The notes under the pieces were generated by a model. That model was given only the letters and a program-made list of their open reading frames with translations. It searched no databases and was not told where the DNA came from. Positions 42,977-54,114 of a stretch of DNA of 54,827 bases are shown one piece after another (the first letter of the stretch is position 1; each line of letters opens with the position of its first letter). Made by a program: the position numbers and the translations under genes. This DNA is from Epilithonimonas hominis (GTDB lineage: Bacteria > Bacteroidota > Bacteroidia > Flavobacteriales > Weeksellaceae). The stretch covers positions 1-54,827 of the forward strand of contig NZ_RJTU01000028.1 in NCBI RefSeq assembly GCF_003730015.1, written 5' to 3'.

Positions 42977-45682
42977 ATGCAGTTTCTTCAGAAGATTATT
43001 ACAGAGTTATTAGAAAATCATCAGGACATTTCCGAGCTGGATATTGTTCTTCCCGGAAAAAGACCAATGGTTTTCATCAAAAGAATCCTGAAGGAAAAAC
43101 ATTACGAAGGACTTTTACCGAATTTCGTCACAATAGACGAACTCATCGCAGAACTTTCAGAAAATGTAGAAATCAAAGGAATTGCGCTTTGGCTCTTTTC
43201 TTTCCGTATTTACAATAAGATTGATTCTTCTGAAGATTTTTCTGGTTTCTTGAAATGGTTTCCGACCTTGCAGAAAGATTGGGACGATATGATGAAGTTT
43301 TCCGATGACGACCAGAAAATTTTGCTTTGGATGTTGGACGAGGAACGGATTAAAAATTGGGGCGAAAACCTCGGCGACGATGACAACCCAAGAAAACGAA
43401 ACCTCAATTTCTGGCGAAAAATGAACGAGTTTCTACCACTTCTGAAATCAGAACTTCAAAAAGAAAATCTCGCCACTTCCGGAATGTTATATCAGGAAGG
43501 ATTTTCCAAGATTGAAAACTTTGCTAAGCAAACCAATCGTCAATTTGTATTTTGTGGTTTCAATGCGTTGTCTAGAGTAGAAGAACAATTGGCAAGACAA
43601 CTTTTGCAATGGAATAAAGCGGAAACTTATTTCCAAGCCGACCAATATTATATTGACGACGAAAGACAAGAATCCGGAAAATTCCTGCGAGAAACCTTGA
43701 AATGGAAAGAGTTTAATGACAGCAGAGATTTTAAATGGATTGAAAATCAATTTAATCAACCAAAAAATATTAAAACCTATGAAGTTTCGGGAAATATTGT
43801 TCAAGCGAAATTCCTTCCTGAAATTTTAAAAAAAATTCCGAAAAAAGAATTCTCGGAAACAGCTTTGGTTCTGTTGGATGAGAATCTTTTGCCTGCGGTT
43901 TTAGACAGTTTAAATGTTGTAGAAAGCGTAAACATCACAATGGGATTTCCGTTAAAGAATCTCTCGTTCAGTAATGCGATTAAAAAACTGTTTTATCTTC
44001 ACAAACAACAGGAGAAAAAATCATCAAGCTATTATTACGCCGATGTTTTGCCAATCCTAGAAGAATTACCAAATGACGAAAAAGATTCTGAAGTCATCAG
44101 GGATTTTGTCGCAACAATAGAGGAAAGAAACATTGTTTATATTTCCAAAACTTTTCTACAAGAATTACTCGGAAATTTGAGTTATTTCCAGCTTTTACAG
44201 AAGCCAGAAAACTCCCAACAATTTTTAGATTTATTAATTAAATTTTGTTACGAGCTTAAATTCAAAGAACTGGATGACATTCAGTATGAGAATATTGCGT
44301 TGTTTGAGAATGTTTTCAAAATCATCAAAAATCAATTATTACCTTACCACGTTGATGTTAAAGTAGAAACTCTCGAAGTTCTCATTAATCAATTGGTCAA
44401 TTCAGAAAGTATTGATTTTGTGGGAGAACCACTGGCTGGATTCCAGATTATGGGACTTTTGGAAACACGTCTTTTGAACTTTAAAAATGTGATTCTCCTT
44501 TCCGTTAACGAAGGGAAATTACCTTTAGGAAACACTCAAAATACTTACATTCCATTTGATGTTCGCAAGAATTTCGGCTTGAATACTTTCTTGGAAAATG
44601 ACAGTATTTATGCTTATCACTTTTACCGATTGATCCAGAATTCGGAAAATGTTCATTTGCTTTACAATGCGTTGAGTTCGGGCGTAAATACAGGCGAAAA
44701 AAGCCGTTTCATCACCCAATTGGAAATGGAAAGTCCGCACAAGATTGAACACGTTATTATCGAAAATTCCTCAGAGCCAATTGCTCAGGAATTGATGAAA
44801 ATTGATAAAAATGAAGAAGTAATACGACTTTTGAACGAATGGAAGAAGCGAGTTTCGCCTTCCCATCTTGTGACCTATCTTTATAATCCGATTGATTTTT
44901 ATCTTAATAATCTTCTCAAAACCAGAGAAACCAACGAAATTGAAGAAGAACTTTCGCAAAGAAATTATGGAAATTTGGTTCATTATGCATTGCAATATTT
45001 ACACGAACCGATTAAAGGTAAAATATTATCGGTTAATGATTTAGAAGGTTTACTTCAACAAACAGATTCAGCAATTGATTTTGCAATTGAAAAATTGAAA
45101 CATCAGCAGGAATTCTATGAACGCGGAATGAATTACATCCATAAAGAAATCGCCAAAAGGGTCGTTCGTAATATTGTGGAGTATGATTTGGAGTTAGTCA
45201 AAAATGGTTCTGCTTTGGAGATTTTGGATTTGGAAAAAGAAATCAATTGTGATTTTTTCCTTGATGAAAATCAAAACGATAAAATCAGTTTTTATGGTTT
45301 TATTGATAGAATCGACAGACTCGACGGAATCACAAGAGTCATCGATTATAAAACGGCAAAACCTAAAAAATTAACGGTTAATCTTGGGAAAAATAAGGAA
45401 GAGAAACTTCCTGAATTATTTTTTAATGATGAATACAAACAAGCGTTACAGCTTTCGATTTATAAATATTGTATCAAAAACGTTTTGAATATCAATCCGG
45501 AAAATATAGAAACTGCAATCTGGTCTTTTGCCGAAGTCAATAATGGTCCACAAAAACTGAATTTCATTGATATTGAGGATAATGAAGTAGAGGATTCCAT
45601 CAGAAATCTGATTGCGGAAATTTTGAATCCGGAAGTTCCGTTTGAGGAAAGAGAAAAGGTGATCCGGAAGATTACTTTTTAA
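42977..45682 (+). CDS. AddB/RecB-like PD-(D/E)XK nuclease family protein
   Basis: 901 aa. The first about 600 residues resemble the inactive helicase-like part of AddB proteins (no complete Walker A). The C-terminal 270 residues form a RecB-family nuclease domain: SPSHLVTYLYNPIDFYLNNLL (near 630), RNYGNLVHYALQYLHE (near 668) and the active-site block DRIDRLDGITRVIDYKTAKP (near 783, with Asp and Lys of PD-(D/E)XK). It would act with an AddA/UvrD-type helicase-nuclease in double-strand break repair, but no AddA gene is in the window. Its 3' end overlaps the convergent T9SS gene by 11 bases. Confidence 0.88.
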   Translation: MQFLQKIITELLENHQDISELDIVLPGKRPMVFIKRILKEKHYEGLLPNFVTIDELIAELSENVEIKGIALWLFSFRIYNKIDSSEDFSGFLKWFPTLQKDWDDMMKFSDDDQKILLWMLDEERIKNWGENLGDDDNPRKRNLNFWRKMNEFLPLLKSELQKENLATSGMLYQEGFSKIENFAKQTNRQFVFCGFNALSRVEEQLARQLLQWNKAETYFQADQYYIDDERQESGKFLRETLKWKEFNDSRDFKWIENQFNQPKNIKTYEVSGNIVQAKFLPEILKKIPKKEFSETALVLLDENLLPAVLDSLNVVESVNITMGFPLKNLSFSNAIKKLFYLHKQQEKKSSSYYYADVLPILEELPNDEKDSEVIRDFVATIEERNIVYISKTFLQELLGNLSYFQLLQKPENSQQFLDLLIKFCYELKFKELDDIQYENIALFENVFKIIKNQLLPYHVDVKVETLEVLINQLVNSESIDFVGEPLAGFQIMGLLETRLLNFKNVILLSVNEGKLPLGNTQNTYIPFDVRKNFGLNTFLENDSIYAYHFYRLIQNSENVHLLYNALSSGVNTGEKSRFITQLEMESPHKIEHVIIENSSEPIAQELMKIDKNEEVIRLLNEWKKRVSPSHLVTYLYNPIDFYLNNLLKTRETNEIEEELSQRNYGNLVHYALQYLHEPIKGKILSVNDLEGLLQQTDSAIDFAIEKLKHQQEFYERGMNYIHKEIAKRVVRNIVEYDLELVKNGSALEILDLEKEINCDFFLDENQNDKISFYGFIDRIDRLDGITRVIDYKTAKPKKLTVNLGKNKEEKLPELFFNDEYKQALQLSIYKYCIKNVLNINPENIETAIWSFAEVNNGPQKLNFIDIEDNEVEDSIRNLIAEILNPEVPFEEREKVIRKITF

Positions 45683-46745
45683 TGAACTTACCTATGAAAT
45701 TTTTATTTTTTGTAGTGATTTTCAATATATAATTCCCTTTCGTAAGATAACTTACATCAAAAGAATTGCTAACCAATCTGCCTTCCGTATTGTAAACACC
45801 GATCGACAGAATTTCCTTTTCTGTAATATTAGTTTGTATTGTATTTTTTACAGGATTCGGATAGATAATGAGCCGGTTTTTTTCTGTTTCGGAAACACTT
45901 AGATTCGGAAAATAAAGATATTTGGCATTAGCAGGAACAAAGATGCCGTTGGTCTCGGTTCCCGTAACACTTAGGACGGGGATTTTGCTGTCTTTGGAAA
46001 ACCACTGATAAGAAACTTCTCTCACATTTTGCGTGGTGGAATTTCCTTCATATGTCACGGTAATGTCGTGATCGGATACAGACTTAAGTTTCAGGACACT
46101 GGTAAATGTTTTATTAGGAATCATCAGTTTTCCCCAGCCTTCTACCGTATTCTGACGTGTTCCTGTGGAAGCTACCTGCAAATTGTAACCCAGGTTTGTA
46201 AAATTCATACTGATGCTGTTGGGATTGGTGTAAGAATCTCCATATATGATTGGGAATTGATACAGGACATCAGGCTGCGTATATTCTACGATTAGCGGCG
46301 CATTTGTCCCGTTGAGATTCACTTGTGCGGCATACATTTTTGCCAGCAGTCGCGAAGTGCTTTTTTTATAAAAAACATAGGCATCCGAGATACTGTAGCC
46401 TCCGAAAGAATAATCGTCCGGCAATGGTGCTGCAAGATTGAAAGCATTATTAAACTGGTTGTTGCAATTGAGGTAATAAGAATGATACAGGCACCAGATC
46501 GTTCTGTAGTTACTTTGAGAAGTTGGGTTTACGAATTCGGAAGTGTCGGTTCCGGTACCCTGGATGCCGGAATAATCCCATGTGATATCAGTTCCTGCCT
46601 GAGTAAAATTAAAAGCCGCGATACCTTGGGAGGTGGTTAGGTTTATGGAAGTTCCTATATCCGCATAATCTGTAGATGAATAAGAAATCTGAGCGCTTCC
46701 CGATAAGCTCATAAAGACAGCAAGTAATAAAGTTTTTTTCATCAT
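45672..46745 (-). CDS. T9SS type A sorting domain-containing secreted protein
   Basis: 357 aa. Signal peptide at residues 1-18 (LLLAVFMSLSGSAQ), a beta-rich body of about 270 residues without a recognised catalytic motif, and a C-terminal type A sorting domain of about 75 residues. The sorting domain has the RLIIYPNPVKN signature, the IGVYNTEGRLV block and a final GNYILKITTKNK…GKFIKK. It is exported by the type IX secretion system and anchored or released at the cell surface. The function of the body is unknown. Confidence 0.9.
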   Translation of the reverse strand: MMKKTLLLAVFMSLSGSAQISYSSTDYADIGTSINLTTSQGIAAFNFTQAGTDITWDYSGIQGTGTDTSEFVNPTSQSNYRTIWCLYHSYYLNCNNQFNNAFNLAAPLPDDYSFGGYSISDAYVFYKKSTSRLLAKMYAAQVNLNGTNAPLIVEYTQPDVLYQFPIIYGDSYTNPNSISMNFTNLGYNLQVASTGTRQNTVEGWGKLMIPNKTFTSVLKLKSVSDHDITVTYEGNSTTQNVREVSYQWFSKDSKIPVLSVTGTETNGIFVPANAKYLYFPNLSVSETEKNRLIIYPNPVKNTIQTNITEKEILSIGVYNTEGRLVSNSFDVSYLTKGNYILKITTKNKNFIGKFIKK

Positions 46746-46868
46746 TTGTTTTTTTTCAAAATTAAAAAAAACTTTTCTGAAGTTGGAAATATTATAGAAA
46801 AATAATTGTAAAAATTATATGTAATGAATAAATCAAATTGTTTTTAAAGACTATTTGAAAAAAATTTA

Positions 46869-48050
46869 TTACCCAAAAGCATTGATTCCCGTAATATCCA
46901 TTCCTGTAATCAAGAGATGAATGTCGTGAGTCCCTTCGTAAGTGATCACAGATTCCAGGTTGGCAGCGTGGCGCATCATCGGGAATTCTCCCATTATACC
47001 CATTCCGCCAAGCATTTGTCTGGATTCTCTTGCAATATCGATTGCCATTTTCACATTGTTTCTTTTTGCCATAGAGATTTGTGCAGGCGAAGCCTTATGT
47101 GCATTTTTCAGATTTCCCAATTGCAGGCAAAGCAATTGCGCTTTGGTGATTTCTGTTAAGAATTCTGCCAGTTTCTTCTGCTGGAGCTGGAAAGAGGCAA
47201 TCGGTTTCCCGAATTGTTTTCTCTCTTTGGTATATTGAACAGCCGTACAATAACAATCCATCGCTGCTCCAATCACACCCCAAGAAATTCCATATCTCGC
47301 TGAGTTAAGACAAGATAACGGACCTTTCAATCCTTCAACATTAGGAAGTAGATTTTCTTTCGGAACTTTCACATTATTGAAAACCAATTCTCCGGTTTTC
47401 GATGCTCTAAGACTCCATTTGTTATGCGTAGTTGGTGTGGTGAAACCTTCCGTTCCGCGTTCCAGAATCATTCCTCTTACTTTTCCGTCTTCACCTTTTG
47501 CCCAAACTACAGCGATGTCTGCAACTGGAGCATTGGTAATCCACATCTTGGTACCATTCAAAAGATAATGGTCTCCTTGGTCTGTGAATTTGGATTCCAT
47601 AGAAGAAGGATCAGACCCGTGGTTAGGCTCTGTCAAACCAAAACATCCAATCATATCACCAGAAGCCAGCTTCGGAAGGTATTTTCTTTTCTGTTCCTCA
47701 GAACCATACTCGAAAATAGGAAACATTACCAAAGAAGACTGTACAGAAGCCGCAGAACGCACTGCCGAATCTCCTCTTTCCAATTCCTGCATTATCAATC
47801 CATAAGAGATTTGGTCAAGTCCCGGACCGCCATATTCTTCAGGAATGTATGGGCCAAGCGCACCGATATTTCCCAATTCTTTCATCAATCCTGGGATATC
47901 CGTATGATTTTGCGCTGCTTCATCTATCTTCGGCATTACAAAACCCTCCACCCAATTCCTTACAGAATCGCGGATAAGCTTGTGTTCTTCGGTCAAAAGA
48001 GCGTCTATGGAGTAATAATCTGGTATGCTTGATAACGGGTAATATGACAT
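46869..48050 (-). CDS. Glutaryl-CoA dehydrogenase-like acyl-CoA dehydrogenase
   Basis: 393 aa flavoenzyme; glutaryl-CoA dehydrogenases convert glutaryl-CoA to crotonyl-CoA + CO2 in lysine and tryptophan breakdown. Family-typical blocks are GCFGLTEPNHGSDPSSMES (near residue 137), SLRASKTGELVFNNV (near 205), NSARYGISWGVIGAA (near 244) and the catalytic Glu in the TYEGTHDIHLLI tail. These favour GcdH over other classes. Start MSYYPLSSIPDYY at 48050; the longer frame upstream lacks homology-like sequence. It is single and 29 kb away from the other fatty acid genes. Confidence 0.9.
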   Translation of the reverse strand: MSYYPLSSIPDYYSIDALLTEEHKLIRDSVRNWVEGFVMPKIDEAAQNHTDIPGLMKELGNIGALGPYIPEEYGGPGLDQISYGLIMQELERGDSAVRSAASVQSSLVMFPIFEYGSEEQKRKYLPKLASGDMIGCFGLTEPNHGSDPSSMESKFTDQGDHYLLNGTKMWITNAPVADIAVVWAKGEDGKVRGMILERGTEGFTTPTTHNKWSLRASKTGELVFNNVKVPKENLLPNVEGLKGPLSCLNSARYGISWGVIGAAMDCYCTAVQYTKERKQFGKPIASFQLQQKKLAEFLTEITKAQLLCLQLGNLKNAHKASPAQISMAKRNNVKMAIDIARESRQMLGGMGIMGEFPMMRHAANLESVITYEGTHDIHLLITGMDITGINAFG

Positions 48051-48178
48051 TATTTTTGTTTTGCCTAAAAATAAAGCTTTTCCTGAATTACCAAAAAGTT
48101 TTGTTAACAATTAATTTACTTTCTACGGTTGTTGGATTCACTTATTCTAATAAAGAACTACATTCCACATTAAATTGA

Positions 48179-48186
48179 TATATTTG
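48179..48186 (+). promoter_or_regulatory. -7 promoter element for the restriction endonuclease gene
   Basis: TATATTTG, exact TAnnTTTG. It ends 18 bases before the original ATG (48205) but 150 bases before the next in-frame ATG (48337). This supports 48205 as the true start. Confidence 0.55.
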
Positions 48187-48204
48187 AAAAACAATTTTAG
48201 TAAA

Positions 48205-48915
48205 ATGACAGAAGAACAAAGGATTGAGATTTTAAACAATGCAAAAGACTTTTTTAGAAGTGAAATTGTAATTAGTCATATTGAAGGTGCTTGTTAACGT
48301 GCGAGTAAATTATCTGAATATAATGTAAACCCTTTCATGTTTAAATATCTTGCAAATTTTCTTACTGGAAATGATAACGCCGAAAGTATTGCAAAAGCAT
48401 TAGTCTTACCAAGAATTCTTGGTTCTTCTATAAATACTTCCTTTGGTATGAAAGTCCAAAAATTGATTGGTCAACTATTCCAAGGATTAGGCTCTACAAC
48501 ATCTGGAATTGATATTGAATTTATTGACGGAATTGATGGTCGAAGAAAATATTGTCAACTAAAAGCTGGTCCTAATACAATCAATCACGATGATGTTACT
48601 ACGGTAATTAATCACTTCAATGGTGTGAGAAATTTAGCGAGAACCAACAATCTTAATATTGGAATTAATGATATGATTGTAGGTGTGATTTATGGAGAAG
48701 AAGCTGAATTGAGTTCACATTATAAAAAAATATCGCAATCTTATCCAGTAATTATAGGAAAAGAATTTTGGTATAGATTAACTGGAAAAGAAGATTTTTA
48801 TCTTGATTTGATTGATGCTATTGGTGATGTCGCGTTAGAAGTAGATGGAAGTCACATTGTAGAACAAACTATTTCAAATCTAGCGATAGAAATTCAAGCA
48901 AAATATTTTGATTAA
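48205..48915 (+). pseudogene. Type II restriction endonuclease (PmeII-like), interrupted by an in-frame stop
   Basis: The frame opens at ATG 48205 (MTEEQRIEILNNAKDFF…), meets TAA at codon 31 (48295-48297), then continues in the same frame (RASKLSEYNVNPF) into a 192-codon ORF starting at ATG 48337. Read through, it would be about 236 aa. The core GIDIEFIDGIDGRRKYCQLKAGPN fits a PD-(D/E)XK nuclease variant with Asp and a Q-x-K pair. The C-terminal part (YPVIIGKEFWYRLTGKEDFY) is intact. Family name is by recollection of PmeII-type endonucleases. The cognate methyltransferase is convergent, 15 bases away. The shortened product lacks 44 N-terminal residues; it might be made by reinitiation, or the enzyme may be inactive. 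Confidence 0.78.
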
Positions 48916-48930
48916 AATAAGTATTGATTC

Positions 48931-50160
48931 CTATCTTGTTTTATAATAATCATTCAAAAACTTGATGATTGAATAGCCAATTTCTCTACCTAAATTAACA
49001 GGTACGGCATTTCCTATTTGTTTGTATTGTTGAGACATTGGTCCCGCAAAATGCCAATCATCTGGAAAAGTTTGTATTCTTGCATATTCGCGGACTGTAA
49101 AGGGACGAGTTTCATCTGGATGACAACGTTCTGTTTGCTTCTGCGCTGGACTGCAAGTTAATGTCAAACAAGGTTCGTCCCAACCGATTCGTCGTGCCAT
49201 CCCTGTTTTTCCTCCTCCTAGATAAAAACTAGCTCCCATAAACTCCTTTTGAATATCTAAAGGCAAATCTCTCCAATATCCTTTTGGCGGAACTAAATCC
49301 AAAACATTTTTTTTACTTTCAGGATATTTTACTCCATCAGACTTTGGAACATTAGTGTCAAATAAATCGCCTTTTTTCAAAGCATCTTTTAGGTTGTAGA
49401 TTTTCTTGTAAGGTTTTGGATATTCATATTTTACATCAATATCTTTTCGAATACCAACTAAAATTAAGCGCTCTCTTTTTTGTGGAACTTTGTAATTAAT
49501 AGCTTTCAAAACTTCAACTGGAACCACATTATAACCAATTTCGTCTAATATGGAAATCATTCCTTGCAGAGTTTTCCCATTATCGTGACTTAAAAGACCT
49601 TTTACATTCTCACCAATACAAATTGGAGGATTTACTTCTTTTACTACACGAGCAAATTCATAGAACAAAGTTCCTCTAGCATCTTCGAAGCCTAGTCTTT
49701 TACCTGCATAACTAAATGCCTGGCAAGGAAACCCGCCTGTTACAACATCAACTTGATTATGGTAGCTGAAAAAGCTAAAGTTCTTTATATCGCCTTCATA
49801 GACATTCCAATTCGGGCGATTTGTTCTCAAAGTTTCACAAGCGTGTTTATCTATTTCATTCAATGCAACACATTTTAGACCTGCTTTTTCCATTCCAACG
49901 GCTAAGCCACCTGCACCTGCGAAAAGCTCTAAAACTTTATACTCGTTAAGTGGTTCAGCAAAATTTGAAACAGTTTCTATTATTTCATCTTGTATAAATT
50001 CTGAAAACAATGCTTGCACATCATCTTTGCGATAAACTCTATAATTGCTCATAGGTTCTCGTACTGCTGAAAGCTTTCCTTCTTCATCCCAACGACGAAG
50101 AGTTTTTGTGCTTTTATTAAGTAATTTTGCTGTTTCTGAAATAGTTAAATATTCGCTCAT
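48931..50160 (-). CDS. DNA (cytosine-5) methyltransferase with N-terminal MerR-like HTH
   Basis: 409 aa. Residues 1-50 form a MerR/excisionase-type helix-turn-helix (YLTISETAKLLNKSTKTLRRW, with a YRVYRKDDV wing). A complete C5-methyltransferase follows: motif I VLELFAGAGGLAVG (77-89), catalytic Cys146 in GGFPCQAFS, ENVKGLL, QKRERLILVG, and motif X QIGNAVPVNL. It methylates cytosine in the site of the neighbouring type II endonuclease. The fused HTH suggests autoregulation, as known for other HTH-bearing C5 methylases. ATG 50160 is chosen over TTG 50175. A -7 element is at 50192-50199. Confidence 0.93.
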   Translation of the reverse strand: MSEYLTISETAKLLNKSTKTLRRWDEEGKLSAVREPMSNYRVYRKDDVQALFSEFIQDEIIETVSNFAEPLNEYKVLELFAGAGGLAVGMEKAGLKCVALNEIDKHACETLRTNRPNWNVYEGDIKNFSFFSYHNQVDVVTGGFPCQAFSYAGKRLGFEDARGTLFYEFARVVKEVNPPICIGENVKGLLSHDNGKTLQGMISILDEIGYNVVPVEVLKAINYKVPQKRERLILVGIRKDIDVKYEYPKPYKKIYNLKDALKKGDLFDTNVPKSDGVKYPESKKNVLDLVPPKGYWRDLPLDIQKEFMGASFYLGGGKTGMARRIGWDEPCLTLTCSPAQKQTERCHPDETRPFTVREYARIQTFPDDWHFAGPMSQQYKQIGNAVPVNLGREIGYSIIKFLNDYYKTR

Positions 50161-50199
50161 AACCAAATTGTACAAGGTTGGACATTGGTTACAAATTTA
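50161..50199 (-). promoter_or_regulatory. Methyltransferase promoter with candidate operator
   Basis: Coding-strand TAAATTTG (top strand CAAATTTA, 50192-50199) is an exact -7 element. Between it and the ATG lie AACCAA (50161-50166) facing TTGGTT (50185-50190), and a perfect eight-base palindrome TTGTACAA (50168-50175). Position over the predicted transcription start fits an autorepressor site for the HTH-methylase. Confidence 0.45.
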
Positions 50200-50250
50200 A
50201 TCTAAAATTTTTCAGATTTCCAAGAAAAATATATAAAATTTTCAAGCTTG

Positions 50251-50275
50251 AAAAAAACTCCAAACCAATTGGAGC
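50251..50275 (-). terminator. Terminator after the AsmA-like gene
   Basis: Six-base stem CTCCAA / TTGGAG with an A7 run on the left, just downstream of the AsmA stop for leftward transcription. Confidence 0.75.
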
Positions 50276-50282
50276 TTTCCTT

Positions 50283-53180
50283 TTACTTCTTCTTCAAATC
50301 TTTATCAATCTGCTTTTCGGCATTCTCAGCTTTCTTTTCCTGAGCACGTTTTTCCTTTCGTTGTTGTGCTCGGGATTTTTTCTCGGCGCGTTTTTCTTCT
50401 CGGATAACTTTGTTGGATTTTGTATTATACAAAGCTTCTATAATACCTTGTCCGGTCTTGCTGAAGATTTTGATTTTCGGTTTCTCGTGCGTTCCTGTGA
50501 CTACAATTGGGAATCCAATCCATCCGGCGGGTGGTAATCCAACTCTCACTCGGAAATCCAGCAAACCATTGAAACTTGTCGTTCCACTAATCGTCGGTCT
50601 CAGAACAGAAACTTTAAAAGTAAACGGCTCTACGTGAATCAAATTATTATTGATGCTCGTTTTGATATCCACACCTTTCATATCCGGATTATCAAAGGCA
50701 TTCGCTCCAATATTATCGCCAACTGCGGAAAGCATTTTTAGGTTTTTGACTTCCACATCTTTAAGGTTCACATTTCCGCCACCTTCTAATGACGGGAAAA
50801 TCGGTTTCATATTGCTGTCAAAATCGCCTTTCAGTTTGTAATCCAAAGAGACAATCCCTTTCACGTCTTTCGCGGCAGTCGCCATTTCACGCACCATATC
50901 AATTTCTTTGTAAGCCCTTTGAACATCGAAGTCTGCAACATTCAATGCTACGTCATAATTAGCTGTGATTGGTGATTCGTCCTGATATCTTGCATCGATT
51001 TTCATTCTACTTCCTATGATGTCAAAACTTGTATTTTTCAGATAAACTTCGCCTTTGCTTACGGAAGCTAATCCCAAAAGATTATTCAGTCCAAGTCCTT
51101 TGAATTCTACTTTTTTCGCATTAGCTTCCAATGAAACATCCAGATTTTTTGGAACAATGACAACACCACTGCTTTTCGGATGTTCTTCTTTCGCATACTC
51201 TACAGAAAGCGATTTGTCTTTGTTGTCGCCTTCTTTCAGCGCCATAAATTCATCAATCAAAATATAATTGGATTTGAGATGGAATTTGCCGTGAAGCGTT
51301 CCTTTTCTTTCGATGAAGTAATTGATGGTATTGAGAAGATAACCATTCAAAGCAAAATCGGATTTTCCATAAGTTGCAAAGAATTTTCTAAACCACATTT
51401 TCTCATTCTCAAACTCGAAATTACCTTCTTTGATATAGAATGATTTCGGAAGATATTCGGTGGTAGCTTTAATATTTTTCAGAATTAAATTCCCTCTGTT
51501 ATCAAGTTTGCTGTATTGTCCGGTTGTCGCATAACTTTGACGACCATTCAAAGATAAATCCGCCATAATCAAACCGCTGATATCCAAACCTTCTTTTTTG
51601 AAAACTTTGTAGATTCTGCCAACATTCAAAACACCTTTTGCTCTGACTTTGTACAATAAATCCTCAAAATCCTGCAAATCTGCATTCACAAAAACAGGAT
51701 TGCCTTCAAAATCAAATTTGAAAGGGTCGAGTTTTACACCCAGACTTTTAAATGTTCCGTCGGTATTATGAATATTCGCTAAAATGTTGATATTCTGAAT
51801 TGGATTTGGATAATATTTTGTTTTCAGCCAGCCATTTTTTAGATTGAAATAACCTTTCGTTTTCGGGAATAATTTTTTGTCAAAATTAAAGATTCCATTT
51901 GACTGAATATCAGTATTCATAAGCCCCTTTAGTTCAATATCTTTCAATCCTAAAGCTGCATCTAAAGTTGCCAAATCGATTCCGCCTTTGATATTAGCAT
52001 TGATATTCATTTCATTTAAACCTTGTGTTCTGACTTTTGCACGGAATTGATTATTCTTGCCTAAATCAAAACTTAGATTTCGCAAATCGAGTAGGAGTTT
52101 GTCTGTGTCTAGCGCAGGCAACTCGACATTCATATCCAGATTAAGATTGTTCATCGGCACAGGTGCATTGCTGTTGGAAACAAAACCATTATCGACTTTA
52201 AGACTTGCTTTCAAATCTGGTTTTTGATTTTTCGGCTCACTGAATCTTCCTTTTAAACTAAAAAACAAATCGCTGTTTCCCTCGATTTTTGTATCCTTAA
52301 CCCAGCTAAGATATTGTGGAGGCAAAACGGACAACATATCTTTAATCGTCGTTTTCTCCGAAGCCGCATTGATATTAAGGTTATATCCATCTTTCAGAAT
52401 ACTCACAAATCCTGTGAATTTCAAAGGAAGTTCATTGATTCTTAGTTCATTTTTTCTCAAGACAAAAGTCAATGCATTGGTGTTGATTCTCGTAATCAAA
52501 TCGGCTTTCAGATATTTCTTTTGTGCGTACCAAATTCGATTGAGTGCAAAATCTATTTTTTCAATTTCGAGGTCGGTTTTTAAATCAAAAATATCTTCGC
52601 TCAGTCCACCTTTACCAGTATAATTCAGATTTTTTGCCTGAACCAAAACATTGGCCGCGTGGTCATTGTATTTGATATTCCAGTTTTTCAGTTTAATTAA
52701 ATCCAATTTAATGGATGCTCCGGTTCCTGTTGTATCTTTTGGTTTTTCGGACGGTTTTGAAACGTAAACATTATAATTGGCTTCGCCTTTGGAATTAACA
52801 AAAACATTGGCAGTTGCGTCGTTCACATAGATTTCATCGATTTTAACTTCTCTATTGAAAATCAGATTTTTCAGATTGATTCCAACTGCTACTTCTTTTG
52901 CTGCAAGTAATGTATCTTGTTCAAAAGGTTTTGAACCTTTCAACAAAAAATCGTCTACGGAAACCGTGAGGGAAGGGAAGTGACGGAAAAAAGTAAGATG
53001 CGTTTTCTTATAATCCAATTCTCCGGCAAGGTGTTTATTCGCAAAAAACTTAACCTGCTGAGAAATGGTTCCCGGAAACAAAATCGGGATAATGAACATT
53101 AAAAATAGGATAGAAGCGATGGTGATTCCCAGCCATTTTAATATTTTCAGCAATATCGTTTTTACATTAACCGCACTCAT
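50283..53180 (-). CDS. AsmA-like outer-membrane biogenesis protein
   Basis: 965 aa. One N-terminal membrane helix (about 9-31, ILKWLGITIASILFLMFIIP), then a very long periplasmic beta-rich region typical of AsmA/TamB-type repeating beta-groove proteins. A C-terminal AsmA-like block covers about 780-920 and a final Lys/Glu/Arg-rich tail (about 925-965) is predicted to be a charged helix. Such proteins bridge the periplasm and are proposed to carry phospholipid to the outer membrane. The start MSAVNVKT at 53180 is chosen because the longer frame (to 53255) would run through a terminator hairpin at 53231-53263. Confidence 0.87.
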   Translation of the reverse strand: MSAVNVKTILLKILKWLGITIASILFLMFIIPILFPGTISQQVKFFANKHLAGELDYKKTHLTFFRHFPSLTVSVDDFLLKGSKPFEQDTLLAAKEVAVGINLKNLIFNREVKIDEIYVNDATANVFVNSKGEANYNVYVSKPSEKPKDTTGTGASIKLDLIKLKNWNIKYNDHAANVLVQAKNLNYTGKGGLSEDIFDLKTDLEIEKIDFALNRIWYAQKKYLKADLITRINTNALTFVLRKNELRINELPLKFTGFVSILKDGYNLNINAASEKTTIKDMLSVLPPQYLSWVKDTKIEGNSDLFFSLKGRFSEPKNQKPDLKASLKVDNGFVSNSNAPVPMNNLNLDMNVELPALDTDKLLLDLRNLSFDLGKNNQFRAKVRTQGLNEMNINANIKGGIDLATLDAALGLKDIELKGLMNTDIQSNGIFNFDKKLFPKTKGYFNLKNGWLKTKYYPNPIQNINILANIHNTDGTFKSLGVKLDPFKFDFEGNPVFVNADLQDFEDLLYKVRAKGVLNVGRIYKVFKKEGLDISGLIMADLSLNGRQSYATTGQYSKLDNRGNLILKNIKATTEYLPKSFYIKEGNFEFENEKMWFRKFFATYGKSDFALNGYLLNTINYFIERKGTLHGKFHLKSNYILIDEFMALKEGDNKDKSLSVEYAKEEHPKSSGVVIVPKNLDVSLEANAKKVEFKGLGLNNLLGLASVSKGEVYLKNTSFDIIGSRMKIDARYQDESPITANYDVALNVADFDVQRAYKEIDMVREMATAAKDVKGIVSLDYKLKGDFDSNMKPIFPSLEGGGNVNLKDVEVKNLKMLSAVGDNIGANAFDNPDMKGVDIKTSINNNLIHVEPFTFKVSVLRPTISGTTSFNGLLDFRVRVGLPPAGWIGFPIVVTGTHEKPKIKIFSKTGQGIIEALYNTKSNKVIREEKRAEKKSRAQQRKEKRAQEKKAENAEKQIDKDLKKK

Positions 53181-53230
53181 AAACTTTAATTTTTCGGAAT
53201 AATTCAAAGATTGTGCTAAAAGTAATTCAC

Positions 53231-53263
53231 AAAAAAATCCTCTCTGAAATTTCAAAGAGGATT
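53231..53263 (-). terminator. Terminator of the SGNH hydrolase operon
   Basis: Stem AATCCTCT / AGAGGATT enclosing a self-complementary TGAAATTTCA core with one mismatch, and a top-strand A7 run on its left. It ends leftward transcripts from 53461-54747. Confidence 0.8.
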
Positions 53264-53310
53264 ATATGCTTTTAAAATATTTAAACTTGTTTTTACAGAA
53301 TTGTTTTTAT

Positions 53311-53446
53311 CGCAAAGTCGCAAAAGTTAATCCTATTAAAAATGTGTTAAGTCGCAAAAAAAATGGAGATTTTCATTTTTAACGAAGTTAAAAACTTTGT
53401 GCCTTGAAAACATAATTTCTTTTAGTAAATAATTTGTGCCTTTGCG
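53311..53446. repeat. Imperfect palindromic repeat, CGCAAAGTCGCAAA type
   Basis: Arms CGCAAAGTCGCAAA (53311-53324) and TTTGTGCCTTTGCG (53433-53446), 12 of 14 positions complementary. Additional internal copies GTCGCAAAA (53351) and AACTTTGTGCC (53393). It lies in the 3' UTR of the SGNH hydrolase transcript; no coding capacity. Confidence 0.7.
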
Positions 53447-53460
53447 TTAAAAAATAAATT

Positions 53461-54087
53461 TTAAAGATATTTCTCAATAATTGGAATTGCAATTTCAGCC
53501 ATTATTCCGTAACCTTTTTCGTTGGGATGAACACCATCCTTGGAAAGCAGAATTTCTTTATCGTGTAAAAAAGCTGAATGAAAATCAATATAATTTAATG
53601 AATTTTCAGTTGCAATAGTTTTAAGGATTTGATTATAAATTAAAACATCTTCATTGGTTCTCACTTTTCCTGTTGGAGAAACTTTCGAATCGATGTTTTC
53701 TGAAAGAGGAAGAATGCTTACCAGATAGATGTCTTTGGAATATTGTTTAGCGTTTTGAACAGCAATTTCAATATTAGTTTTGAATTGTTCCGGATTTACC
53801 AATTGATTTTCATCTTTTTTTGCCAAATCATTAGCTCCGTAACCGATGAAAATGATGTTTCCATCAGCGGAATTTCTGGCTTTCATTTCGTGAGACATTC
53901 TATTGAGCAAACCTTCCGTTGTTTCGCCACCAATTCCGAGATTGAAAAGAATTAATTCGTTACTCCCTTCATTATATTTTTGCAAAGCATATCGTTTCAG
54001 GATATCAACCCAGCCGCCAAAAACGCCATCATATTCTCCGTAAGTAATGCTGTCTCCGAAGAATAATCCATAGATCATCTTGTTCAT
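53461..54087 (-). CDS. SGNH/GDSL-type esterase
   Basis: 208 aa SGNH-fold hydrolase. Block I FFGDSITYG (catalytic Ser near residue 12), block II NLGIGGETTEG (Gly), block III GYGANDLAK (Asn) and block V DGVHPNEKGYG (catalytic Asp/His near 189-192). No signal peptide, so probably cytoplasmic; lysophospholipase or acetyl-esterase activity is typical of the family, but the substrate is unknown. Start Met1 or Met4. It is last of three same-strand genes (54747, 54405, 54087) ending in one terminator. Confidence 0.9.
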   Translation of the reverse strand: MNKMIYGLFFGDSITYGEYDGVFGGWVDILKRYALQKYNEGSNELILFNLGIGGETTEGLLNRMSHEMKARNSADGNIIFIGYGANDLAKKDENQLVNPEQFKTNIEIAVQNAKQYSKDIYLVSILPLSENIDSKVSPTGKVRTNEDVLIYNQILKTIATENSLNYIDFHSAFLHDKEILLSKDGVHPNEKGYGIMAEIAIPIIEKYL

Positions 54088-54114
54088 TAATTTAAAACTT
54101 TTGTAATTTTAATT

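Follow-up and report, generated by a model that had tools for sequence, protein, structure and literature searches.

Which of its two enzymes does a Type II restriction-modification (R-M) system lose first when it begins to decay? This question is raised by an R-M locus in a 54,827-nucleotide stretch of DNA from Epilithonimonas hominis (contig NZ_RJTU01000028.1 of assembly GCF_003730015.1, analyzed in its full length and referred to here as the window), in which the gene for a restriction endonuclease is interrupted by one in-frame stop codon next to an intact gene for a C5-cytosine methyltransferase. Comparing this locus with related loci and with its counterpart in a sister genome (G236), we conclude that the window probably carries a recently disarmed Type II R-M system, in which the nuclease was inactivated by a nonsense codon and the methylase was kept. 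The locus has the following features.

48205..48915, plus strand: endonuclease gene in its original full frame, EcoO109I/PmeII-family Type II, broken at codon 31 (translation, profile match, starts of homologs)
48295..48297, plus strand: in-frame TAA, derived in the window lineage (sense codon in 10 of 10 outgroups used)
48337..48915, plus strand: remaining open frame of 192 amino acids, without the N-terminal helix, from a newly derived ATG (list of open reading frames, outgroup comparison, structure model)
48931..50160, minus strand: MerR-type helix-turn-helix (HTH) plus C5-cytosine methyltransferase, 409 amino acids, intact, convergent with the endonuclease gene (open reading frame, profile match, motifs)

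A single stop codon interrupts an EcoO109I-family gene

We confirmed that the window endonuclease frame from 48205 is an EcoO109I-family gene with a single in-frame TAA. Translation of 48205-48915 yields 30 residues, the TAA at codon 31, 205 further open codons and a terminal TAA at 48913-48915, in agreement with a preliminary description of this DNA, according to which the frame is open except at 48295-48297. A mechanical list of open reading frames shows the endonuclease only from the ATG at 48337 (192 amino acids). This part matches PF14511 (RE_EcoO109I) with 107.5 bits compared with a cut-off of 22.5, which places it in the EcoO109I/PmeII family, and the read-through frame with an X at the stop scores 118.3 bits, with the match beginning at codon 37. 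Taken by themselves, the first 30 codons matched no family in the profile search, and a search of NCBIfam gave no match for the endonuclease. Relatives in three of four plasmid records bear the name "PmeII family type II restriction endonuclease".

The upstream start is conserved among homologs. PF14511 was found in 16 of the 320 genomes of the taxonomic family that were searched, the window genome included. In all ten loci from this set that were used to compare starts (L005-L008 and L010-L015; 47-97% identical), an ATG lies exactly 44 codons before the column of the alignment that corresponds to 48337, and the N-terminus is open; the five other non-window loci, i.e., the distant EcoO109I-like L002-L004 and the short fragments L016 and L017, were not used for this purpose. 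A scan of genome contigs gave 50 named loci, which are not independent of the ten-locus set because five of the ten are from the same genomes. An in-frame ATG lies 41-44 codons before the 48337 column in 46 of the 50; among the remaining four, L056 is cut by a contig end, L052 and L067 are frameshifted after the column, and L064 is frameshifted before it. L058 (an insert with a stop) and L060 (a late frameshift) are counted among the 46, yet are broken further downstream. Altogether, the nuclease frame is broken in five of the 50 named loci, all five being metagenome-assembled genomes (MAGs) by their record titles, and has no break in 45, of which L056 is visible only in part. G236 has an intact copy, as do records from Flavobacterium, Chryseobacterium and Soonwooa. 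Methylase sequence is present in 49 of the 50 loci, with no stop in any matched part (L040 is matched by a fragment only, and L059 and L061 from residue 70-72). Thus, homologs begin at the equivalent of 48205 and not at that of 48337, a check that the preliminary description had proposed. With its profile match and conserved start, and with an intact G236 protein that matches the fold of 1wte/1wtd over its whole length, the gene resembles the EcoO109I/PmeII family; unlike the 45 unbroken loci, the window copy stops at codon 31 and does not encode a complete, continuous polypeptide.

The break is young

G236 has the R-M pair at the same place and is collinear with the window over 42977-54088 with 94% identity. 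Across the first 88 endonuclease codons, the stop and 48337 are the sole points of difference between the two genomes, with zero silent differences; similarly, 48295 and 48337 are the only differences within 48140-48470. Using ten outgroups, we found that both changes are derived in the window. Because this interval differs from G236 only at two derived sites, we conclude that the break is young. Over codons 46-236, the window branch has no replacement and 10 silent differences, and the G236 branch has 6 replacements (in 5 codons) and 10 silent differences, with 5 silent ties; thus, the window branch has no derived replacement after codon 45. The G236 endonuclease is intact, and none of its five derived codons is at an invariant column of our alignment A1. 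With a break this young, the well-kept remaining frame is no proof of selection for a shortened product. Divergence from G236 over 42977-54088 is a mosaic, in which runs of 100-base blocks with 0% divergence lie beside blocks with 10-26%, and this pattern suggests recombination between the window and G236 lineages or with a third lineage.

The methyltransferase is intact in the window and interrupted in G236

As described earlier, the motifs of the convergent methyltransferase are intact: Motifs I, IV, VI, VIII, IX and X were identified using a regular expression, and PF00145 is covered at 324 of 324 profile positions, as expected for a C5-cytosine methyltransferase. From the pairing of its subfamily with Eco47II nucleases in five of five genomes (see below), we infer a probable GGNCC specificity for this enzyme, which probably still methylates the genome, now as an unpaired enzyme. 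The window genome, a draft of 94 contigs, has one PF14511 match; a search limited to this and the Eco47II nuclease family gave no Eco47II match in the draft, and no second close methylase was found in it, the next-best methylase match being 35% identical.

In G236, it is the methylase of this locus that is broken. In the ortholog of 48931-50160 (L068), codon 247 of 409 is a TAA, so that the frame stops downstream of motif VIII (codon 227) without reaching the recognition domain. No ATG start was found near the break; the first in-frame TTG is codon 261 and the first ATG codon 308. Based on six outgroups, G236 has 9 derived replacement differences in the methylase (9 codons, stop included) and the window 5 (4 codons), with 15 and 16 silent differences, respectively, and 4 ties. 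All six outgroups agree at five of the nine derived codons in G236 (3, 246, 247, 270 and 368) and at none of the four in the window.

A Type II nuclease that is intact but lacks its methylase is expected to kill the cell. We therefore searched G236 for other methylases and found a second one, which is intact, 85% identical to the window methyltransferase, and located beside a PF09553 Eco47II endonuclease (280.3 bits). Over residues 246-340, which we chose as the target-recognition region, it is identical to the window enzyme at 82 of 95 positions. Among the 23 genomes of the genus, an Eco47II nuclease scores over the cut-off in five, and the same methylase subfamily adjoins it in all five; because the nuclease at the locus studied here is of the EcoO109I family, this methylase subfamily pairs with two unrelated nuclease families. 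The known Eco47II site is of the GGNCC type, with the methylase assignment itself called uncertain (PMC10305163), and the known EcoO109I site shares GGNCC (PMC7337904). For Dcm and EcoRII, a methylase of the same site is known to protect when the first is lost (PMC3874152), and separated Type II systems had been predicted, without experimental proof as of 2012 (PMC3488263). Most likely, the G236 nuclease relies on an unlinked isospecific methylase, and the loss of the linked methylase is probably tolerated through the second enzyme covering the same sites. The frames and similarities fit a separated Type II R-M system in G236, with shared specificity and activity predicted from sequence. The earlier proposal that the endonuclease is lost first, as the survivable order of decay, does not hold at this locus, given that G236 has a broken methylase and an intact nuclease.

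The second complete R-M system of G236, of the Eco47II type, lies at L128:7411-9407, and its neighbors are a gene for an HsdR-N-domain protein and transposase- and recombinase-like genes (the latter identified by eye).

A model for a probably disarmed system and its alternatives

We suggest that a Type II R-M system, probably of GGNCC-like specificity, consisted of an EcoO109I/PmeII-family nuclease and a convergent HTH-C5 methyltransferase, that a nonsense codon recently inactivated the nuclease by splitting its N-terminal helix from the catalytic body, and that the methyltransferase, being whole, would go on methylating as an unpaired enzyme. In G236, the equivalent methylase gene is the interrupted one, and the methylase of the Eco47II-type system would cover the same sites and allow survival. 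This model is based on what the sequences show directly, namely a stop codon, an upstream start that homologs share, an uninterrupted methylase frame and almost no other differences around the break; loss of cutting activity, active methylation, specificity and horizontal transfer are what we infer from the sequences. Nonsense decay of a Type II nuclease with the methylase kept is an ordinary kind of event, but it is seen here unusually early and with an unusual counterpart in the sister genome. Between them, the two sister genomes show the decay of a Type II R-M locus just as it begins, in each of the two possible directions. This provides a natural test of the addiction idea, according to which loss of the nuclease is free, and loss of the methylase is survivable only if another methylase covers the same sites, as G236 seems to have. 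If the first G236 nuclease is active, then removing the second methylase should be lethal.

Several observations weigh against this model. Base-call errors are possible at 48295 and also in the G236 methylase, and a second methylase or nuclease could sit in a gap between the 94 contigs of the window draft genome. The absence of downstream replacements says little on selection after so recent a break. Moreover, the stop and the new ATG at 48337 both appeared within one short stretch, a coincidence that pure chance does not explain comfortably; over codons 32-88, only 6 of the 513 possible single substitutions create an ATG.

This coincidence bears on the possibility, which we consider unlikely, that a shortened, attenuated nuclease of lower toxicity is still made from 48337, with ribosomes either reinitiating downstream of the TAA or starting there directly. 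The preliminary description had proposed such reinitiation. In its favor, the ATG is derived in the window, since all ten outgroups used have Leu, and among 83 distinct sequences, the window included, the column has Leu in 75, Val in 4, Ile in 2 and Met in 2, the two Met carriers being the two sequences broken upstream of it, i.e., the window and the rumen MAG L064 (1102-1808), an independently broken homolog with a one-base frameshift in the N-terminus, whose N-terminal frame ends in a TAA 8 bases before the ATG at this column. However, this comparison was made after the fact on two sequences (n = 2), one of them from a MAG, and since EcoO109I itself has Met at this column in the alignment, a Met there need not be a start. 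The region around 48337 is little structured (-1.0 kcal/mol compared with a median of -3.7 for window genes), and its start context scores above 84% of 275 internal in-frame ATGs; however, among 36 window genes it ranks within the lowest 11%, even though 48337 itself helped to build the score, and 48205, from outside this set, is at 42%. There is also a T at -3, where A favors initiation in Flavobacterium, and an out-of-frame AUG at 48323, whereas extra AUGs near starts are avoided in Bacteroidetes (PMC6847099). Structure models argue in the same direction. The intact G236 endonuclease is predicted with a mean pLDDT (a per-residue model confidence) of 88.3 and has a single long N-terminal helix (residues 3-33); the window 192-residue body alone, which lacks residues 1-44, is modeled less well, with a mean of 71.4, blocks of 44-69 in its residues 1-50 and of 45-76 in 151-192, and 82-92 in the central part compared with 87-97 in the intact protein. 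In the relative AvaII, N-terminal helices are stacked on the core (PMC7337904). Thus, the newly derived ATG and the Met of L064 still speak for the reinitiation proposal, and the poor start context and the lower predicted order without residues 1-44 speak against it; loss of function of the window nuclease is more likely than a working remnant.

A natural split endonuclease, in which the cell would produce both the 30-residue N-terminal piece (helix 1) and the 192-residue body and the two would join to form a working enzyme, is very improbable. The stop does lie near the end of the sole N-terminal helix and the new ATG just ahead of the next long helix (residues 46-54), the body alone is predicted to be less ordered, and L064 has a similar two-piece layout; however, the start context at 48337 is weak, a 30-residue peptide is likely unstable, and no such split enzyme is among the papers listed by our literature search. 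Because the window and L064 are from distant lineages and both combine a cut-off N-terminal helix with an ATG exactly one codon ahead of the next helix, a nonsense codon plus a new start might also be a repeatable route to a two-piece or shortened nuclease with lowered activity instead of a dead gene, which we regard as a long shot. Finally, we doubt that the TAA is a sequencing or assembly error in an intact system. The genome is a draft, the rest of the gene is well kept, and the five broken nuclease frames among the named loci are all from MAGs; moreover, two archaeal methylase genes with annotated frameshifts were, or probably were, sequencing errors (Ershova et al., PMC3488263), and 109 of 138 frame breaks vanished in a Brucella resequencing cited there. 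However, the TAA reflects a substitution rather than a homopolymer indel, another derived substitution is found 42 bases from it, and completeness and contamination of the genome are rated at 100% and 0.1%, respectively. Of the ideas in the preliminary description, the disarmed R-M system with a kept methylase is the part that stands, and is well supported by the conserved 48205 start, the intact methylase, the near-zero divergence at the break and the lack of replacements after codon 45; the general order of loss is not kept at this locus, and reinitiation is weakened.

Comparison with known systems

The window methylase, intact beside a broken nuclease, resembles the solitary (orphan) C5 methyltransferases of decayed R-M systems; unlike in those, the nuclease remnant is still linked and almost complete, arguing that decay is at its first step. 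G236, with an intact nuclease, a broken linked methylase and an unlinked methylase at hand, resembles the separated Type II R-M systems and solitary endonucleases of PMC3488263; however, its unlinked methylase belongs to a second complete Eco47II system, and those in that paper are all solitary. As with Dcm and EcoRII (PMC3874152), the cell would survive the loss of one methylase thanks to another with the same specificity, but in G236 the nuclease appears to persist on the chromosome with only the linked methylase lost. Strains of Mycoplasma agalactiae also have a disrupted nuclease subunit in some cases and a disrupted methylase in others (PMC9465063); those changes are in poly(A), poly(G) and GA tracts of Type I, Type III and CpG genes, whereas here single substitutions affect a Type II pair in two species. 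The G236 stop after motif VIII falls in the region where C5 enzymes tolerate division, as in M.AquI and M.SssI fragments (PMC3404938), but there is no ATG start near this break.

Promoter element and insertion site

Two further features concern the surroundings of the pair.

48179..48186, plus strand: TATATTTG, -7-like promoter element of the endonuclease gene (sequence; also in relatives)
48097..50258, no strand assigned: R-M insert, approximate extent, flanked by genes for an acyl-CoA dehydrogenase and an AsmA-like protein (from comparison with the R-M-free site of G220)

The element TATATTTG sits 18 bases 5' of 48205, as previously described, and has the form TAnnTTTG, which we take to be the Bacteroidota -7-type element. 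Among 11 relatives checked, G236 has TATATTTG at the same 18 bases, and six of the ten others have similar elements (TATATTTG at 24 bases in L010 and L011; TATCTTTG at 17-18 bases in L018-L021); L005, L006, L007 and L012 have no element of this form in the region checked.

The G220 locus (L079) matches the window up to 48096 on the left and from 50259 on the right; the flanking gene names were read by eye from translations, not by family search. We also compared 17 congener loci that lack the R-M pair, of which 12 include both flanking genes and five stop short of the second; the intergenic length is 147 bases in G219, 137 bases in G220 and about 0.5 to 1.4 kb in the other ten, seven measured directly and three taken from match positions. 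The cargo of this gap (48110-50283 in the window) varies among congeners from R-M to other single open reading frames to almost nothing. Four Flavobacterium records contain related R-M pairs with 82-83% DNA identity, which fits horizontal transfer as the probable route by which the pair was acquired.
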